The notes under the pieces: model-generated
Databases searched by the model: none
Told to the model about the DNA's origin: nothing
The model's input: only the letters and a program-made list of their open reading frames with translations
IMG/VR virus record: IMGVR_UViG_3300005527_000121
Span: 1-38,485 of that record
From: a virus
Length of the DNA stretch: 38,485 nt
Strand: one strand, 5' to 3'
Program-made: the position numbers and the translations under genes
Part shown: positions 3,205 through 14,880 of the stretch, piece after piece
How positions within the stretch are numbered: the first letter of the stretch is position 1
How the letters are laid out: every line of letters begins with the position of its first letter

Positions 3205-3765
3205 CTACCTCAATTCATATACATATCGTAATTTTCTTTCTTGTTTTAAAACAGATGCTTCGCCTTTTTTAATTGCATCTTGAATTCTCTTAGCGTCTTT
3301 AGAGTACTCACCATCTTTCTTTTGATATAGCTGTCTAATATGGTAGTATCTATCTCCCCACTTTACAACCCTAGCATTATTCTTTTCTAAGCCATCGAAC
3401 TTGAAGTTAGTTGCTTTATATATTGTTCCTTGGTGACCTTTATTTGGATCAGCAAATGTTATAACTCTAGTATATCTCTTTTTCTTTAAGTGTCTAAGAG
3501 TAGCACCTAGAAAGAAACTCTCTGTGTTCTTCGGGGTATCGTCAATTAAACAGAATCTACGAAGCTCTAAATCGTTCATGTCACAGTTTGCCCCACAAGG
3601 CTGACCATAGATAGCTACCCCACAAAGTTCTCCAAATTCGCTCAACAAAAGAAAAACTTCCTTTTGTTTCATTGATCTACAACTCTTAGAGTAATGCCAC
3701 TTTTCTACAAAGTCAATAGTATTCTTTGAAAGGATCGATCCTACTGGCACGATTTTATATCTCAT
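3205..3765 (-). CDS. Mom-like DNA-modification protein (GNAT fold)
   Basis: 186 residues. It resembles the phage Mu Mom family, which converts adenine in phage DNA to a carbamoyl-methyl derivative and blocks host restriction. Landmarks in order: HY at 24-25, a GVAIYGQP strand near 49-56, LELRRF at 66-71, NTES at 80-83, and the strongest block, ADPNKGHQGTIYKATNF, at 105-121, where Mom-type proteins have the same AD-GH-GTIY-A-NF pattern. The extreme start reads TTG, so I place the start at the ATG at 3765, 4 bases after a GGGGAG site. It overlaps the stop of the upstream small gene. Adenine as target and resistance as role are inferred from the family. Confidence 0.82.
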   Translation of the reverse strand: MRYKIVPVGSILSKNTIDFVEKWHYSKSCRSMKQKEVFLLLSEFGELCGVAIYGQPCGANCDMNDLELRRFCLIDDTPKNTESFFLGATLRHLKKKRYTRVITFADPNKGHQGTIYKATNFKFDGLEKNNARVVKWGDRYYHIRQLYQKKDGEYSKDAKRIQDAIKKGEASVLKQERKLRYVYELR

Positions 3766-6043: not shown

Positions 6044-6232
6044 TCAATCCTTTATGTATTTAAATTCTCTACAAACTGGTGGTTTCATTATCCAACTATT
6101 AATATACCACCAGTTATAAATACTTCTATCATTTTCTACCGATGTTCCGCAATTCCCAATTAGTAATAAAAACTTAAATCTAATTCTTTCATTTACTCCA
6201 ATTTCTTTATGGTCGAACTGGTAAATTCTCAT
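6044..6232 (-). CDS. MxIxQ-family small protein (MRIYQFD)
   Basis: 62 residues: MRIYQFDHKE, then RFKFLLLIGN, with a Trp-rich middle (YNWWYINSW) and a KYIKD end. The start lies inside the 3' end of the ATP-grasp gene (26-base overlap), tying it to the enzyme cassette. Confidence 0.7.
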   Translation of the reverse strand: MRIYQFDHKEIGVNERIRFKFLLLIGNCGTSVENDRSIYNWWYINSWIMKPPVCREFKYIKD

Positions 6233-6962
6233 TGATGTACTCCTTCATTGCAACTACCCAACGCTGGGCATTATTAGAGTTCAATCCTGGTGCTGAGTTT
6301 ACTTCACAAACAAAGAAGTTACCATCCTTATCTCGAATCAAATCTACTCCACCAAATAATAAACCAAGAGCATTTACTGCATCAATTGCAATTTTTTGAC
6401 CGACTTCATTACATCGACTTCTTGTAGGATTGACGAGACTAAAGTGGCAGTTATGTGACTTGAATAAAGCGGGTCGTTCGTAGTTTTCTTCATTGATATT
6501 ATTAGGAATCTTTTCGTAAATGGCTACGATCTTGGAATTGAAGACATGAACTCGATACTCTCTCCTCTTATTTGGAATTGGCTTAGAGGCATACTGATCT
6601 GTTACTGGATTGAAGTCATTACCATAACGAACTTCACCTTGTCTCGATCTGATATAGTAGTTATTAGTTGTATCTTTTACTGAATCAATGCTAGTTAATT
6701 CTGTAGTAAATACAGGCATTGGAATATTTGCAGCAGAAAGTAATTGCATCATTCTTAGTTTATTGCTAGCGTTTAATACCGCCTCTGCTGTATTAAGTTC
6801 TAGTCTAGCTGTAGTCCTATTGAATACCTCAGAGCTACCCCAACGAATAAGAACATCTAATTTAGCACGACGCTGTGTTTTCTTTCTAGGACAGGAAAGA
6901 ATCTGACGAAGAAGCTTTCCAGTGTTGGATGATTTAGAATGGTAGGCAATCATTGTTTTCAT
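6207..6962 (-). CDS. ATP-grasp ligase (RimK-like)
   Basis: 251 residues. ATP-grasp enzymes join a carboxylate to an amine or thiol through an acyl-phosphate. The C-terminal catalytic half is clear: EYRVHVFNSKIVAIYEK near 135-151 (a substrate/ATP strand), GGVDLIRDKDGNFFVCEVN at 204-221 with metal-binding acidic residues, and SAPGLN ending at 228. A basic N-terminal region (CPRKKTQRRAK) comes before the pre-ATP-grasp part. The start at the ATG at 6962 has AAGGTT upstream. With the glutamine amidotransferase and GS-type amidoligase nearby it makes up an amide-bond-forming set. The substrate is unknown; small peptides, a cell-wall component or a nucleobase are all possible. Confidence 0.82.
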   Translation of the reverse strand: MKTMIAYHSKSSNTGKLLRQILSCPRKKTQRRAKLDVLIRWGSSEVFNRTTARLELNTAEAVLNASNKLRMMQLLSAANIPMPVFTTELTSIDSVKDTTNNYYIRSRQGEVRYGNDFNPVTDQYASKPIPNKRREYRVHVFNSKIVAIYEKIPNNINEENYERPALFKSHNCHFSLVNPTRSRCNEVGQKIAIDAVNALGLLFGGVDLIRDKDGNFFVCEVNSAPGLNSNNAQRWVVAMKEYINENLPVRP

Positions 6963-7143
6963 TTTTAACCTTCGCTTCTAACTTAGCTGTGAAACTATAT
7001 CGATGTTTCTCTATCGATTCATTATAGAAATCTTTTTTATTAATCTGTTTGATTAAACAAATATGATTAAGAATTCTACCAAAAGACAATTCGTACACAA
7101 TGAGACGAGAATGGTCTCTCATTTTATACTGAACGATTTCCAT
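6934..7143 (-). CDS. MxIxQ-family small protein (MEIVQYK)
   Basis: 69 residues: MEIVQYKMRD, then LIVYELSFGRI and a lysine-rich C-terminus. It overlaps the start of the ATP-grasp gene by 29 bases, and its own start lies one base after the stop of the preceding member. Confidence 0.7.
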   Translation of the reverse strand: MEIVQYKMRDHSRLIVYELSFGRILNHICLIKQINKKDFYNESIEKHRYSFTAKLEAKVKNENNDCLPF

Positions 7144-7144
7144 A

Positions 7145-7309
7145 TTAGTTCACCTTATAAAGTTCAATAAGTTGATCGTCAAAAACCCAACCACTAATAC
7201 TGTCACATCCAAGACTCCCCCACCTATCATCGTATTTATTTTTAATCCAAAATAATAATTGTCTTGGTCTACTATAGAAAGAGTTATTTTTTAATTGACA
7301 TATCTTCAT
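7145..7309 (-). CDS. MxIxQ-family small protein (MKICQLK)
   Basis: 54 residues: MKICQLKNNS, then LLFWIKNKY, with a WGSLGCDS turn and an ELYKVN end. AAAGGATAAAT precedes the ATG. It sits between the glutamine amidotransferase gene and the next member, with 2-base and 1-base gaps. Confidence 0.7.
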   Translation of the reverse strand: MKICQLKNNSFYSRPRQLLFWIKNKYDDRWGSLGCDSISGWVFDDQLIELYKVN

Positions 7310-7311
7310 AT

Positions 7312-8520
7312 TTATCCTTTAGCTTCTCCATAAGCAGAATTAAATACAAATTCAATCTCATCTACAACATCTTGGAAATCATCGAACTGCCAAGTATCTT
7401 GACGAAGATGAGTTGGAAGACATTCATACATATAAGAAAAATTACATCCGAACTCAGCGTCATACTCATATAGTCGATCGATCAATGGTTCGTCAACGTC
7501 ATAAAGGAAATCGAAAAGATCGGCGATGTTATAGAACTGTTCTCTTTCTGAGACCTGCGATAATACCTGAGTCTCTTCTCTCTCTGATTCTTTCTTCGAG
7601 GGTTTTGAAGGATTCATTGGTAGAAGGTAAGCTTGACTTTTTTTTTCTGGCTGACTTGCTTTTCCAGACATACGCTCCCAATCGAATCCGCCGTAGTAAT
7701 TGCCTCGGCTATTGAGAACCGAATCATTTAGCTGCGTTTGAGAAATAAGCTGACCAGTTACAGCATTGAATCGGAATAACTTATTTTCTTTAATCATTGA
7801 TGGTTTTGTAAATTCAAGTCCGAGCTTTGTTGCTGTTGATGTGATGATGTCGGTAGTCGTTGCCATTACTATTCCGAATCCTTCGATTTGTGAATAATAT
7901 AACCCCGCATCATTACGAATAACGTCAAGAATGCGAGTGCCGTCAGAGTCCCGAGTAAGAATACCAAACGCCCAATAACCAGAAAGAGTGTTAAGCCAAG
8001 CTTGCGCATTGGAAATATCCTTACCTACGTTATGATTGATATATGATTGCAACGCTGCCTCTGAATCGCAAGTAGAAATTTTATTAAGTCCAAGTGTAAA
8101 AGAGTTACTGATAACTCCGTTATGTACTAGAGAATGATCTGCGTCAACGAATGGGTGTGTATTGGCGAACTCTTTTCCACAGGTAGCATAACGTGTGTGC
8201 ATTGTTACTGTCGTAACATTTTCAAATGTCGGAACATCTACACCAAACAAAGAATAGTTTTGATCGATGTTAGTATATTTAGACAAATGCTTTTTATATG
8301 CAAGAAGTTCTTTAGCAATCTTCTCATCTCTAATTGCGTCTCGATCAAAGAACAAATCGTTATCATGCCATCGCTCAGTAAAGAAGTTACCATCATTCTT
8401 TACTGCACTATAACCAATTCCCATGTTGTTACCAACAGACATTGGAACCTTAGCTTCTAGCATAAATTTTTCAGTTAGCGATGGATTCTTAAGACCTGTC
8501 ATAAGTAATAATCGACACAT
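7312..8520 (-). CDS. Class II glutamine amidotransferase (Ntn hydrolase)
   Basis: 402 residues. It releases ammonia from glutamine for a partner ligase. The ATG at 8520 gives Met-Cys-Arg; loss of Met exposes the N-terminal cysteine nucleophile of this family. HTRYATCG at 108-115, NTHPF at 120-124 and LVHNGVISN at 131-139 are the classic glutamine-pocket blocks. About 100 C-terminal residues (from about 300) form an acidic, aromatic extension (FDFLYDVDEPL) absent from minimal amidotransferases, perhaps a docking region. The stop codon of the preceding gene overlaps the ATG (TGATG). The neighbouring amidoligase and ATP-grasp genes are the likely users of its ammonia, or of its reverse, peptidase-like activity. 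Confidence 0.88.
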   Translation of the reverse strand: MCRLLLMTGLKNPSLTEKFMLEAKVPMSVGNNMGIGYSAVKNDGNFFTERWHDNDLFFDRDAIRDEKIAKELLAYKKHLSKYTNIDQNYSLFGVDVPTFENVTTVTMHTRYATCGKEFANTHPFVDADHSLVHNGVISNSFTLGLNKISTCDSEAALQSYINHNVGKDISNAQAWLNTLSGYWAFGILTRDSDGTRILDVIRNDAGLYYSQIEGFGIVMATTTDIITSTATKLGLEFTKPSMIKENKLFRFNAVTGQLISQTQLNDSVLNSRGNYYGGFDWERMSGKASQPEKKSQAYLLPMNPSKPSKKESEREETQVLSQVSEREQFYNIADLFDFLYDVDEPLIDRLYEYDAEFGCNFSYMYECLPTHLRQDTWQFDDFQDVVDEIEFVFNSAYGEAKG

Positions 8521-8801
8521 CAATAATTTCCTTTGTTTAATTTGATAATAGATATAATTCCATTTCTTAGAGTTATCTTTTGTTTTAAACCATTTGGTTG
8601 AAGCATATCATAATCTTTTGATATGACCATACCATTTAAGTATAAAGTAGAAGATGTAATTTCACTACAAGCGTCAGAATATAGCGGGTCTGGTAGACTG
8701 AGAGTCAATAGCAGAGTGTTCTGGAATATCTCTACTCCAGAACCTCTGTAATAAAAGAACTTGATTTTAGGCTGCTTCGAACTCTTCGTTGCCGTTCTCA
8801 T
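8520..8801 (-). CDS. Probable MxIxQ-family small protein, start uncertain
   Basis: The reading frame ending at 8520 contains EIFQN followed by LLLTLSLPD and a strand-rich C-terminus ending IIKLNKGNY, which fits the family. The expected start position is the codon at 8735-8733, 7 bases after an AGAGG site, but that codon is GTA. The nearest canonical upstream start is the ATG at 8801, used for these coordinates; it has no ribosome binding site and overlaps the amidoligase by 35 bases. Either a non-standard start is used or the gene is decaying. The stop overlaps the amidotransferase ATG. Confidence 0.5.
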   Translation of the reverse strand: MRTATKSSKQPKIKFFYYRGSGVEIFQNTLLLTLSLPDPLYSDACSEITSSTLYLNGMVISKDYDMLQPNGLKQKITLRNGIISIIKLNKGNY

Positions 8802-10173
8802 CGATTCGAGATGAAACGTAGTCCATAGCAACTTTAGGGATAGATGGAGCCACCGAAGAAAGTTCCGTAATTGTCTCCATTTTCTTTGTAATAAGTTGAG
8901 CATTGTTCACTACTCCGATAAGAAACTTACACCAGTTAATAATCTGAACACAGTTTACTGTACCCTCGTGAACTCGAATCTCAAGAGTTTGGAACTTCTT
9001 AAATGCGTGAGTGTTAATAACGCTATATCTTTCAGAATCGTTACGCTCCTGTGTTACTTTGAAAGAAGAGTTTTTATTTGGTTTACAGTATGTATTTAGC
9101 TGTCTATACTCAGGTTGAGCTTTACGCATTAGACTCATTGTGTTAAACAATGCAGCGTATGAAGTCTCTGCGTTTCGAGTTCTGTGATCGAGATGAACGT
9201 GCAATCCACAAGATCGGTTTACAAGTGCATTGATTTCCTTGTCCCGTAGAACTTTTTGGATTCGCATTAGGACATTTTCTAGCTCATCTTCCGAGACTAA
9301 AACTCGAATTTCGCAAGAGAAATAATTCGGTGCATCTACATTGATCGAACCATCATCTGTAACATTGACATACTTATGAAGGCGAGCTTCGATGAATTTC
9401 TTCTTAAGCTTGTCACGACCACCCTTAACGATACACTCAATCTCGATACCAACATATTTTTTATTTGGATCGGAAGGAACTTTGTTTTGCTCAATAAAAG
9501 TAACAAGTCCTTGCTCAAAGATTTTACCATAAACATTGGATTCAACATTGATGCCACCCAACTTACGAACCTTAACACCTTGAACTTCTTTGACTGTCTC
9601 TTTTAGAACATTAGCTCTACGCTGTTCTGTGATAAGAGAGGCAAGGTGCATCTCTAACTCTTCTTTTTTGTCAGCTAGAGAAGTCTCAACTTCTACAACT
9701 CGCTTGAGCTTATCAACATAAAACTTTGTAGTTGCTGGATTTAGAGCAGATGAGATGGCGAGTTCAATTTTCTCAATCTCAGCAGCGTTCGCCTTCATTG
9801 TCCGACCATTTGGCTTATACTTTAGAGCCAAACGCTCACGCTTTTGACGAAGAAGTGAAAGCTCTGTTTGCAATTGACTCACATCAATCTTATCTTCAAT
9901 CTTTCGATAAGCAATGGTTCGTTTACATACAGCAGGTTGACAATCTGCAACTCTGAGAATTGGATTTCCTTGAACCTCTGGAACATTGAGAACTTCTACC
10001 TCAATGATTTCACCATGATAGCTATGCTTATCAGTTCTAAGAACTTTGAAAAGCCAATCACGCATAATACCAACATAACCTAGCTGACCGAAATGACCAT
10101 CTAGTTTGAAATTTTCAGCGAACATAGATGGATTAAGACGGATAACAGAACCAACTTTAATTTGATTTGACAT
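8767..10173 (-). CDS. GS-fold amidoligase (putative amidoligase family) with N-terminal coiled coil
   Basis: 468 residues from the ATG at 10173; GGAGG lies 8 bases upstream, and the TTG two codons earlier is too close to it. Residues 1-95 form a small beta domain, about 96-200 are a coiled coil, and about 235 to the end are the catalytic domain. YVGIEIEC at 240-247 has the metal-binding GIEIE. DDGS at 273-276 and SCGLHVHLD at 321-329 (glycine plus two histidines) are hallmarks of the glutamine-synthetase-like COOH-NH2 ligases. KFQTLEIRVHEGT is a later basic strand. This family forms amide bonds with ATP and usually travels with a glutamine amidotransferase and an ATP-grasp ligase, as here. 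The substrate cannot be told from sequence. Confidence 0.85.
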   Translation of the reverse strand: MSNQIKVGSVIRLNPSMFAENFKLDGHFGQLGYVGIMRDWLFKVLRTDKHSYHGEIIEVEVLNVPEVQGNPILRVADCQPAVCKRTIAYRKIEDKIDVSQLQTELSLLRQKRERLALKYKPNGRTMKANAAEIEKIELAISSALNPATTKFYVDKLKRVVEVETSLADKKEELEMHLASLITEQRRANVLKETVKEVQGVKVRKLGGINVESNVYGKIFEQGLVTFIEQNKVPSDPNKKYVGIEIECIVKGGRDKLKKKFIEARLHKYVNVTDDGSINVDAPNYFSCEIRVLVSEDELENVLMRIQKVLRDKEINALVNRSCGLHVHLDHRTRNAETSYAALFNTMSLMRKAQPEYRQLNTYCKPNKNSSFKVTQERNDSERYSVINTHAFKKFQTLEIRVHEGTVNCVQIINWCKFLIGVVNNAQLITKKMETITELSSVAPSIPKVAMDYVSSRIDENGNEEFEAA

Positions 10174-10194
10174 AGACAATACCTCCGAGTTATG

Positions 10195-13535: not shown

Positions 13536-13703
13536 TCACGCTATGCGAGCGGCTAATTCTTTCTTAGCTAAGTATCTAGTCTTTGCTTCTAATCCAATAT
13601 AATCATAAAATCTAGGCTTATTATTTCCTGTATAAAAAGTCCAAGCATTATAAAATTTCCACTTACCATTAACATATACAGCATAAAAGTTATATGGTCT
13701 CAT
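13536..13703 (-). CDS. Small basic aromatic protein directly downstream of a hammerhead ribozyme
   Basis: 55 residues starting MRPYNFYAVYVNGKWKFYNA, with a Tyr/Phe/Trp-rich beta-looking N-terminus (a three-strand sheet is plausible) and a basic helix at the end (TRYLAKKELAARIA). The start at the ATG at 13703 has AAGGAA 6 bases upstream. That AAGGAA is also the 3' strand of stem III of the type III hammerhead, so it is paired in the intact ribozyme and can be freed after cleavage. Function unknown. Confidence 0.65.
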   Translation of the reverse strand: MRPYNFYAVYVNGKWKFYNAWTFYTGNNKPRFYDYIGLEAKTRYLAKKELAARIA

Positions 13704-13708
13704 TTTAT

Positions 13709-13761
13709 TTCCTTTTCGTTCTTTTGAACTCATCAGGTAAGACATACATCTTACGAAGGAA
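13709..13761 (-). ncRNA. Type III hammerhead ribozyme
   Basis: All core parts are present in order on the minus strand. Stem III 5' strand UUCCUU ends in the cleavage-site C (g13755). Stem I is a 6-bp hairpin GUAAGA-UGUAUG-UCUUAC. The core CUGAUGA follows. Stem II is GUUC-AAAA-GAAC, then GAAA, then AGGAA, which together with the last core A pairs perfectly with UUCCUU. Predicted cleavage is between 13755 and 13754. The stem III 3' strand serves as the ribosome binding site of the 55-residue gene. Identification rests on the exact core and three perfect stems. Confidence 0.9.
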
Positions 13762-14064
13762 GGGGAGATTTTTGCCTCCCCGCTTCTAACCAATACCCTT
13801 CATTCCCATGTCAGGTATCAGTCCTAGTGATATTAGCCGTTTATTTGTGGTTCACACCTTATTAGCTAAATCACGCCCAAGAAAAAGAATAGTTTAGCCT
13901 GATCTTTTTCCGGTGAACATAGGTAGCCTCTCAGCTCGTCTTGTTGCGCAAGGACGCTCTTCTACCTACTGCCAACTATTTGTTGGACTTTCTTTTGATT
14001 ATTTTTGCTGCATCCGTACAGCCTAATTAGTTTTTTAGACTCATCAGGTAAGGCTCCACCTTAC
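13755..14064 (-). ncRNA. Predicted 310-nt RNA excised by two hammerhead ribozymes
   Basis: The segment lies between the cleavage sites of the two hammerheads. It has no open reading frame of note on this strand. Visible helices include CCAAC/GUUGG, a long-range UAGGUAG/CUACCUA enclosing a CUUG-CGCAA-CAAG hairpin, GUUCAC/GUGAAC enclosing GAAAAAGA/UCUUUUUC, AUACCU/GGGUAU, and a 3' hairpin GGGGAG/CUCCCC. Cleavage would leave a 5'-hydroxyl and a 2',3'-cyclic phosphate, ends that an RtcB-type ligase can join into a circle. No known RNA class is recognised. Confidence 0.6.
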
Positions 14065-14088
14065 GACGGCTGTTTAGCCGTTTCGTCT
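14037..14088 (-). ncRNA. Type II hammerhead ribozyme
   Basis: The order on the minus strand is a circular permutation of the other ribozyme: AGAC (stem II), GAAA, stem III hairpin ACGGCU-AAAC-AGCCGU, cleavage-site C (g14065), stem I hairpin GUAAGG-UGGAG-CCUUAC, core CUGAUGA, GUCU (stem II). Stem II, open at the ends, is only 4 bp and is the weakest element. Predicted cleavage is between 14065 and 14064. It lies just downstream of the basic 90-residue gene. Stem I is nearly identical to that of the type III copy. Confidence 0.87.
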
Positions 14089-14107: not shown

Positions 14108-14380
14108 CTACACTTTTTTTACAAGCACAATTTTAGCAGATTCTTTTTCTTTTTTTGCTTTTCTTACTTGCTCCCGCAAATAATCAAGCCGTGCTCGCTC
14201 ATTAGACTTCATGTAATGTCCATTGTCAATGAGTCTTTTTTCATTTGTCACTACTCTACCCCATTGAGAGTGTAAGTTAGCGCCAGCTTTAATACAGCTC
14301 TTTGTTTTTTCTGCATTTTTAGCTGCCTTAAGCTGCGCTTCAATCTTTTTTTGAAGCAGCATCTCTTCTCTAGTCATCAT
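14108..14380 (-). CDS. Hypothetical basic helical protein
   Basis: 90 residues, rich in Lys, Arg, Glu and Ala, with two long helices (EEMLLQKKIEAQLKAAKNAE and ARLDYLREQVRKAKKEKE) around a central segment with one Cys and one Trp. GAGGT lies 5 bases before the ATG. The stop is followed within 20 bases by the type II hammerhead, which would trim the 3' end of its message. Confidence 0.66.
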   Translation of the reverse strand: MMTREEMLLQKKIEAQLKAAKNAEKTKSCIKAGANLHSQWGRVVTNEKRLIDNGHYMKSNERARLDYLREQVRKAKKEKESAKIVLVKKV

Positions 14381-14594: not shown

Positions 14595-14880
14595 GTTTCA
14601 ATAACTTACGAGGCATCTCTAAAGATAAAAAATACTGCGTATATTCTATGGGTCTATGTGAATTCAATAACTTAAGAAAGCCCACTATATCTAACCATAT
14701 ATATAAGGATAGACCTATGTAAATTCAATAGCTTAAGCATGGATCTATATAATATCAACTAGATAGCATCTGGATGTATGTAAATTCAATAGGTTAGGTT
14801 AAGTGTCTAGGATGATGTATGTGAATTCAATAGGTTAGTGTGAGAGAGGTATAGGATGTATGTAAAATCAACTACTTAGC
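14595..14880 (-). repeat. Array of seven imperfect direct repeats (promoter, operator or origin iterons)
   Basis: Units of about 23 bases, plus-strand consensus TRTATGTRAATTCAATAGSTTA, start near 14653, 14714, 14744, 14775, 14816 and 14857; a half unit lies at 14596. Start-to-start spacings of 61, 30, 31, 41 and 41 are close to whole helical turns, so the sites face the same side of the DNA. Read on the minus strand each contains TTGAAT or TTGATW, like a -35 box pointing at the leftward genes. They could bind a phage regulator, a phage-directed polymerase or a replication initiator. Confidence 0.65.
14700..14728 (-). promoter_or_regulatory. Candidate leftward early promoter
   Basis: Within repeat unit three, minus-strand TTGAAT (14728-14723) is followed by a 17-base spacer and TATATA (14705-14700), close to the sigma70 consensus. 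It would start transcription about 230 bases upstream of the first leftward gene. Other repeat units have the -35-like part with poorer -10 matches. Confidence 0.45.

Follow-up and report, generated by a model that had tools for sequence, protein, structure and literature searches.

Predicted hammerhead and twister ribozymes of exchangeable class around a structured RNA in a phage operon

The locus and its two hammerheads

The DNA analysed here, called the window throughout, is the whole stretch of 38,485 nt at positions 1-38,485 of IMG/VR record IMGVR_UViG_3300005527_000121. Its gene content identifies it as an uncultured tailed phage. Genes for a large terminase, an SU10/P22-like portal, a major head protein and an endolysin lie on the plus strand, and many small ORFs on the minus strand form a leftward operon. 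Within this operon, between an ORF of 90 aa and one of 55 aa, sits a pair of hammerhead ribozyme motifs. The features of the locus are listed in the order in which a leftward transcript would contain them; L021 is a related phage locus described below.

14108-14380, minus strand: upstream ORF, 90 aa, ending in a stop codon 19 nt upstream of the type II ribozyme
14037-14088, minus strand: type II hammerhead (stem II open), predicted cut 14065^14064
13755-14064, minus strand: structured non-coding RNA of 310 nt, predicted to be released by two cuts, with no ORF longer than 14 codons
13919-13993, minus strand: best conserved domain of that RNA (window against L021), an AAAUA-loop hairpin and, after it, a long stem that carries AAGAGCGU
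13709-13761, minus strand: type III hammerhead (stem III open), predicted cut 13755^13754
13536-13703, minus strand: downstream ORF, 55 aa, with its start codon 51 nt past the type III cut

The type II motif reads AGAC (14088-14085), GAAA (14084-14081), a hairpin forming stem III, GUC ending at 14065, a hairpin forming stem I (14064-14048), CUGAUGA (14047-14041) and GUCU (14040-14037). The CUGANGA, GAAA and NUH elements of a type II hammerhead are thus all present (here as CUGAUGA, GAAA and GUC), with stems I and III closed and stem II open; the stems have 7, 4 and 6 pairs. A pseudoknot between loop I and the 3' tail is typical of bacterial type II hammerheads, and by eye the window copy has no convincing one; the pseudoknot is also absent from some type II copies described previously (PMC3088659). 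The type III motif consists of UUCCUU (13761-13756), C13755, a hairpin forming stem I from 13754, CUGAUGA, the stem-loop GUUC-AAAA-GAAC, GAAA (13717-13714) and the 3' strand of stem III, AAGGAA (13714-13709). Here too the core is complete, with stems I and II closed and stem III open, and AAGGAA contains the ribosome-binding site of the 55-aa ORF. The stem I sequences of the two hammerheads are nearly identical. A sequence-only reading of this DNA had already placed both motifs on the minus strand, and its coordinates agree with ours base for base, as do its predicted cuts at 14065/14064 and 13755/13754, which are 310 nt apart.

Covariance models from Rfam recognise the pair only in part. At gathering score, no family reaches threshold anywhere in the window. 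Hammerhead_3 does match the type III motif from end to end, with 36.1 bits (E=3.9e-6, 601 bases searched) against a curated gathering score of 48.5, and Hammerhead_II does not match the type II copy. The search with hammerhead models that the sequence-only reading had proposed therefore recovers one of its two motifs, below gathering. Little weight attaches to the Hammerhead_II miss: the model is too narrow and fails also on the obvious type II arrays that other phages carry. Those arrays comprise 3 to 7 co-oriented type II hammerheads in L007, L009, L012, L013 and L014 (also L004 and L011). They form a regular unit of ribozyme plus ribosome site, in which the start codon often lies ~43 nt past the cut and is directly preceded by AGGAGG.

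A descriptor scan of the window finds these two motifs and no other good hammerhead. In 300 dinucleotide-preserving shuffles of the window, the same quality is reached by two single motifs and by no pair. Beyond the window, the 95.6-kb contig of this virus (L001) yielded no further hammerheads.

Several other searches and observations concern the surroundings of the pair. A tRNA and tmRNA search found none, a BLAST comparison of the segment with phage records gave chance matches only, and a terminase search of bacterial genomes, in which a host was sought, gave no match. Between 2190 and 11825 on the minus strand, at least eight small ORFs have similar N-termini (MKIAQYKDD, MIEITQYML, MEIVQYKMR, MRIYQFDHK, MIYIFQYGS, MIYFDQTPI and similar); the encoded proteins of 60-80 aa look like paralogues of one family, spread along the leftward operon. 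Adjoining genes for a RimK-like ATP-grasp ligase, a glutamine amidotransferase and an amidoligase (6207-10179, minus strand) suggest a phage set for modifying peptides or proteins. At 14640-14880, in a long divergent intergenic region, several TATTGAATTTACATA-like copies are spaced ~60 nt apart and are possibly phage promoters or origin repeats.

Ribozymes at the same place in related phages

Relatives were collected in two ways. A pattern describing a type III hammerhead that holds a ribosome-binding site in stem III retrieved L021 (79% terminase identity). In L021, a homologue of the upstream ORF is followed by a type II hammerhead, 262 nt, a type III hammerhead and an ORF of 57 aa, which is the counterpart of the 55-aa ORF at the same place. 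The 262-nt segment has no ORF longer than 20 codons and folds like the window RNA. A scan based on a terminase alignment gave 80 loci, many of which carry hammerheads in the leader of the leftward operon, usually just before the ribosome-binding site. The 90-aa ORF is a conserved marker of the locus, with homologues in L021, L041 and L039 and weak ones in L043 and L051; a scan for relatives of the 55-aa protein matched only the same virus.

Another type II/type III pair is found in L051 (58% terminase identity), where 349 nt separate the two. With 42.5 bits, the type II copy of L051 is above the Rfam gathering score; the type III copy reaches 25.2 bits (E=0.004). L041 has a type II hammerhead in front, and its contig ends inside the RNA. 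Altogether, the syntenic type II motif recurs in L021, L041 and L051, where its stems show compensatory changes, and the type III motif recurs in L021, L039 and L051. Stem positions differ from copy to copy, and pairing is retained in nearly every cell of the comparison; because the copies were picked by a descriptor that demands pairing, the percentage tells less than the variety of pair types. In L042 and L002 only the 3' hammerhead is found. Neither Rfam nor a core search with one mismatch allowed gave a 5' ribozyme in L042. The RNA there (3500-3640, minus strand) has its 3' hammerhead and no recognisable ribozyme in front, and its 5' end could come from an undescribed ribozyme or from a promoter.

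At two of the related loci the ribozymes belong to another class. In L039 (71% terminase identity) a type P1 twister stands in front of the RNA (38.6 bits, E=6.5e-7) and a Hammerhead_3 match behind it (33.8 bits, E=1.9e-5). In L043 (60% terminase identity) a twister lies on the 5' side (38.2 bits, E=6e-7) and a second one on the 3' side of the RNA. Both 5' matches are below the curated gathering score of the Rfam twister-P1 model, 67.2. The 3' twister of L043 is unmatched by Rfam; it was spotted by eye and then scored with a model built from the three twister copies, which it matches by construction. A separate descriptor in which the pseudoknot is required also recovers it, with pseudoknot bases UGC/GCA rather than CAC/GUG. 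All the twister copies of L039 and L043 have the UAA, P1, P2, P4 and the pseudoknot from loop to GAG. Run over the relatives and most of the contig of the window virus, the twister descriptor returns these three twisters and one poor match (L077).

The terminase tree places L039 with L041, which has a type II hammerhead in front, and L043 with L042 and L051, which have hammerheads. Because the twister-bearing loci group with hammerhead relatives in this way, the class must have changed at least twice. Judged from the sequences, the predicted ribozymes are exchangeable in class, and the non-coding RNA that they bracket stays at the same syntenic place. We argue from this exchange around a retained RNA that release of the RNA is what is selected; it suggests that selection acts on excision of this RNA at fixed points and not on a hammerhead as such.

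The same comparisons bear on whether the two hammerheads of the window are coincidental and inactive. Short hammerheads can arise randomly in large databases, and the Rfam scores are modest. However, the shuffled sequences yielded no pairs, the arrangement recurs in synteny in diverged relatives with compensatory changes in the stems, and twisters replace the hammerheads at the same place. A coincidence is thus highly improbable: the hammerhead pair is real, well beyond chance.

Fold and conservation of the bracketed RNA

The longest ORF between the ribozymes has 14 to 37 codons in the window, L021, L039, L043 and L051, too short to be convincing in any of them. The inner segment of the window has a folding energy of -95.6 kcal/mol (z=-4.4). 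Since the neighbouring coding ORF has z=-3.9, a low folding energy is not specific to the inner RNA and is weak evidence when taken alone. For a better test of the fold, the RNA can be compared with its closest counterpart. The inner RNAs of the window and L021 share 61 consensus pairs, of which 20 are compensatory (both sides changed) and none is broken; when partners are shifted by one column as a control, no pair has compensatory changes. If the structure predicted for one sequence is instead tested on the other, 20-21 compensatory pairs are found where 9-10 are expected, and the broken pairs are fewer than in any of 2000 simulations. The sequence-only reading had proposed a structured RNA between the cuts, and this comparison bears it out; that reading lacked the comparative evidence from relatives.

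Conservation is clearest in the domain at 13919-13993, where 8 of 22 pairs are compensatory and none is broken between the window and L021; the same fold is present in L042. Its AAAUA hairpin recurs with different stem letters in L039, L041 and L042, and in L043 with one extra base in the loop; it is not seen in L051. Only the window and L021 can be aligned confidently over the inner RNA. Homology in L039, L042, L043 and L051 rests on synteny, on the AAAUA hairpin (except in L051) and on short motifs.

Ribozymes aside, no Rfam 15 model gives a credible match to the inner RNA in the window, L021, L051, L039 or L042. A short-pattern scan for the RNA over viral and bacterial contigs returned the window virus, L021 and otherwise chance matches only. 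A covariance model of the conserved domain found only the window, L021 and fragments of L041 and L039, and it is too narrow for distant relatives. We regard the inner RNA as a candidate new RNA family.

The window and L021 have two further features in common. After loss of stem III, the terminal CUUC becomes available to an invariant GAAG located ahead of the last hairpin, a pairing found in the fold of the window RNA, and a conserved UUGGGC is a possible partner for the freed strand of stem II. Refolding of this kind would, in these predicted structures, make release one-way.

Release of the RNA and its possible roles

The preferred reading is that this locus probably encodes a phage small RNA both of whose ends are made by the predicted self-cleaving ribozymes. 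The leftward operon would be transcribed through the ORF at 14108-14380, the RNA and the ORF at 13536-13703, and both ribozymes would cut the transcript as it is made. The type II cut, just past the 90-aa ORF, would leave the upstream mRNA ending in a 3' hairpin with a cyclic phosphate. After the type III cut, 51 nt before the next ATG, the downstream mRNA would begin with a 5'-OH and a short leader folded as a hairpin. What lies between, the 310-nt RNA, would be freed as a linear molecule, folded into the conserved multi-helix structure. The motifs, the predicted cut positions, the architecture, the fold (window against L021) and the ribozyme exchange are all read from the sequences themselves; from them we infer that the transcript is cut in the cell, that a stable linear RNA is released and that this RNA acts in trans.

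Alternatively, the ribozymes could serve the flanking genes: they would divide the operon into separate mRNAs whose ends are protected by hairpins, a task that hammerhead arrays seem to perform elsewhere in phages, and the inner RNA would be a leader or spacer. The type II arrays of other phages, with their cuts ~43 nt before start codons, fit this explanation, as does the hammerhead just upstream of the ribosome-binding site in most relatives. The binding site of the next gene lies in stem III in the window, L021 and L039, and in the window it is predicted to become more open after cleavage (0.31 to 0.63). However, the effect is small in L021 and L039, small or absent in L002 and L042, and absent in L051. 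Release of the ribosome site was therefore rejected as the main function: it is not general, and as it is clear only in the window, it is a side effect at best. A spacer would also not be expected to keep its fold through compensatory changes, and the second ribozyme, at the 5' end of the RNA, is kept or swapped for a twister. Processing of the mRNAs alone thus seems unlikely to us. A role as primer for DNA replication near the repeat-rich intergenic region is unlikely as well, because a 2',3'-cyclic phosphate end cannot prime.

Self-cleavage on both sides would leave the small RNA with a 5'-OH and a 2',3'-cyclic phosphate, which suit an RtcB-type ligase of the host, and the sequence-only reading had raised the possibility of a circle. 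Such an RNA would resemble a natural version of the engineered Tornado system, a stable circle, and L043, with a twister on either side of its RNA, has the arrangement of the Tornado cassette (PMC10288759). The end chemistry still makes a circle possible, but the other evidence points away from it. RtcB was not found in ten phage contigs of the family, and the contig of the window virus has neither RtcB nor a ligase of the PF09414 type. RNA_ligase (PF09414) genes occur only in relatives without a detected pair (the contigs of L053, L055, L066 and L087, and none of the pair-bearing contigs searched). Folding gives no conserved helix joining the ends, and Perreault et al. sought circles and spliced products from phage hammerhead clusters and saw none (PMC3088659). 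Circularisation is therefore a minority reading, possible but distinctly improbable. In its fullest version, a conserved regulatory RNA is cut from an early message by exchangeable hammerhead and twister ribozymes and closed by a host ligase into a Tornado-like circle; we think this unlikely too. If it were true, the circle would give the phage a nuclease-resistant RNA effector during infection.

Ribozyme-mediated splicing is a further alternative, in which a hybrid hammerhead ligates the upstream and downstream fragments and the RNA is an intron-like insert. The near-identical stems I of the window hammerheads count in favour of this scheme, and a weak hybrid stem II of three pairs is possible in the window. 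However, inspection of the stems shows that it cannot form in L021 or L051, the scheme is inapplicable where the 5' ribozyme is a twister (L039), and spliced products were sought in vain for other phage hammerhead clusters (PMC3088659). Since the hybrid stem is not conserved, we reject splicing as barely credible.

Excision of a small RNA, the reading that we prefer, can be set against several known systems. Perreault et al. (2011) described type II hammerheads and prophage clusters in which types I, II and III flank genes (PMC3088659); some hammerheads of phage clusters cleave in vitro and in Escherichia coli. Mixed topology is thus not new, a point overstated in the sequence-only reading, and two topologies are ordinary for phages. 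Like those (pro)phage clusters, the window has at least two co-oriented hammerheads of different types close together on one phage transcript, and cutting is expected to process the message. In contrast, the clusters flank protein genes, whereas the window pair flanks a conserved non-coding RNA with no ORF longer than 14 codons, and relatives of the window use twisters at the same positions. Hammerheads also occur close to halovirus start codons (PMC3088659). In HHphage of haloviruses HF1 and HF2, the hammerhead lies a few bases upstream of the start codon and, as would be the case here, defines the 5' end of an early message; HHphage differs in being a single ribozyme with a variant core, for which no second ribozyme or excised RNA is described (PMC3088659).

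Bacterial twister and hammerhead ribozymes are enriched near genes of Mu-like phages and near each other (summarised in PMC10085705). Both there and here, two classes are found in similar places of phage genomes; in the present family the class is exchanged at one orthologous place and on both sides of one RNA. Hammerhead cuts also set the ends of viroids and retrozymes, whose RNAs are a few hundred nt long, but these use repeats of the same ribozyme, which the circle regenerates (PMC7761336). The window has two different ribozymes, and the element is single-copy in a DNA phage; the released RNA would lack both GAAA strands and could not re-form either ribozyme. Tornado RNAs are, similarly, placed between two self-cleaving ribozymes and have 5'-OH and 2',3'-cyclic phosphate ends, with two twisters as in L043; they are closed by RtcB (PMC10288759), whereas for the window RNA such closure is a minority reading. 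Our search of open-access literature, outside which most subscription papers and preprints lie, found no report of a phage non-coding RNA excised by a ribozyme pair, and a family of RNAs cut out by ribozyme pairs of interchangeable class appears to be new.

The finding bears on the reasons for the abundance of hammerhead and twister ribozymes in phages and bacteria. At one place in a phage family we find two hammerheads, a twister with a hammerhead, or two twisters, and each of these arrangements encloses a non-coding RNA. For this one case it offers a testable answer, namely that the ribozymes exist to excise a small RNA with exact ends, and such loci may provide natural templates for ribozyme-delimited RNA expression.
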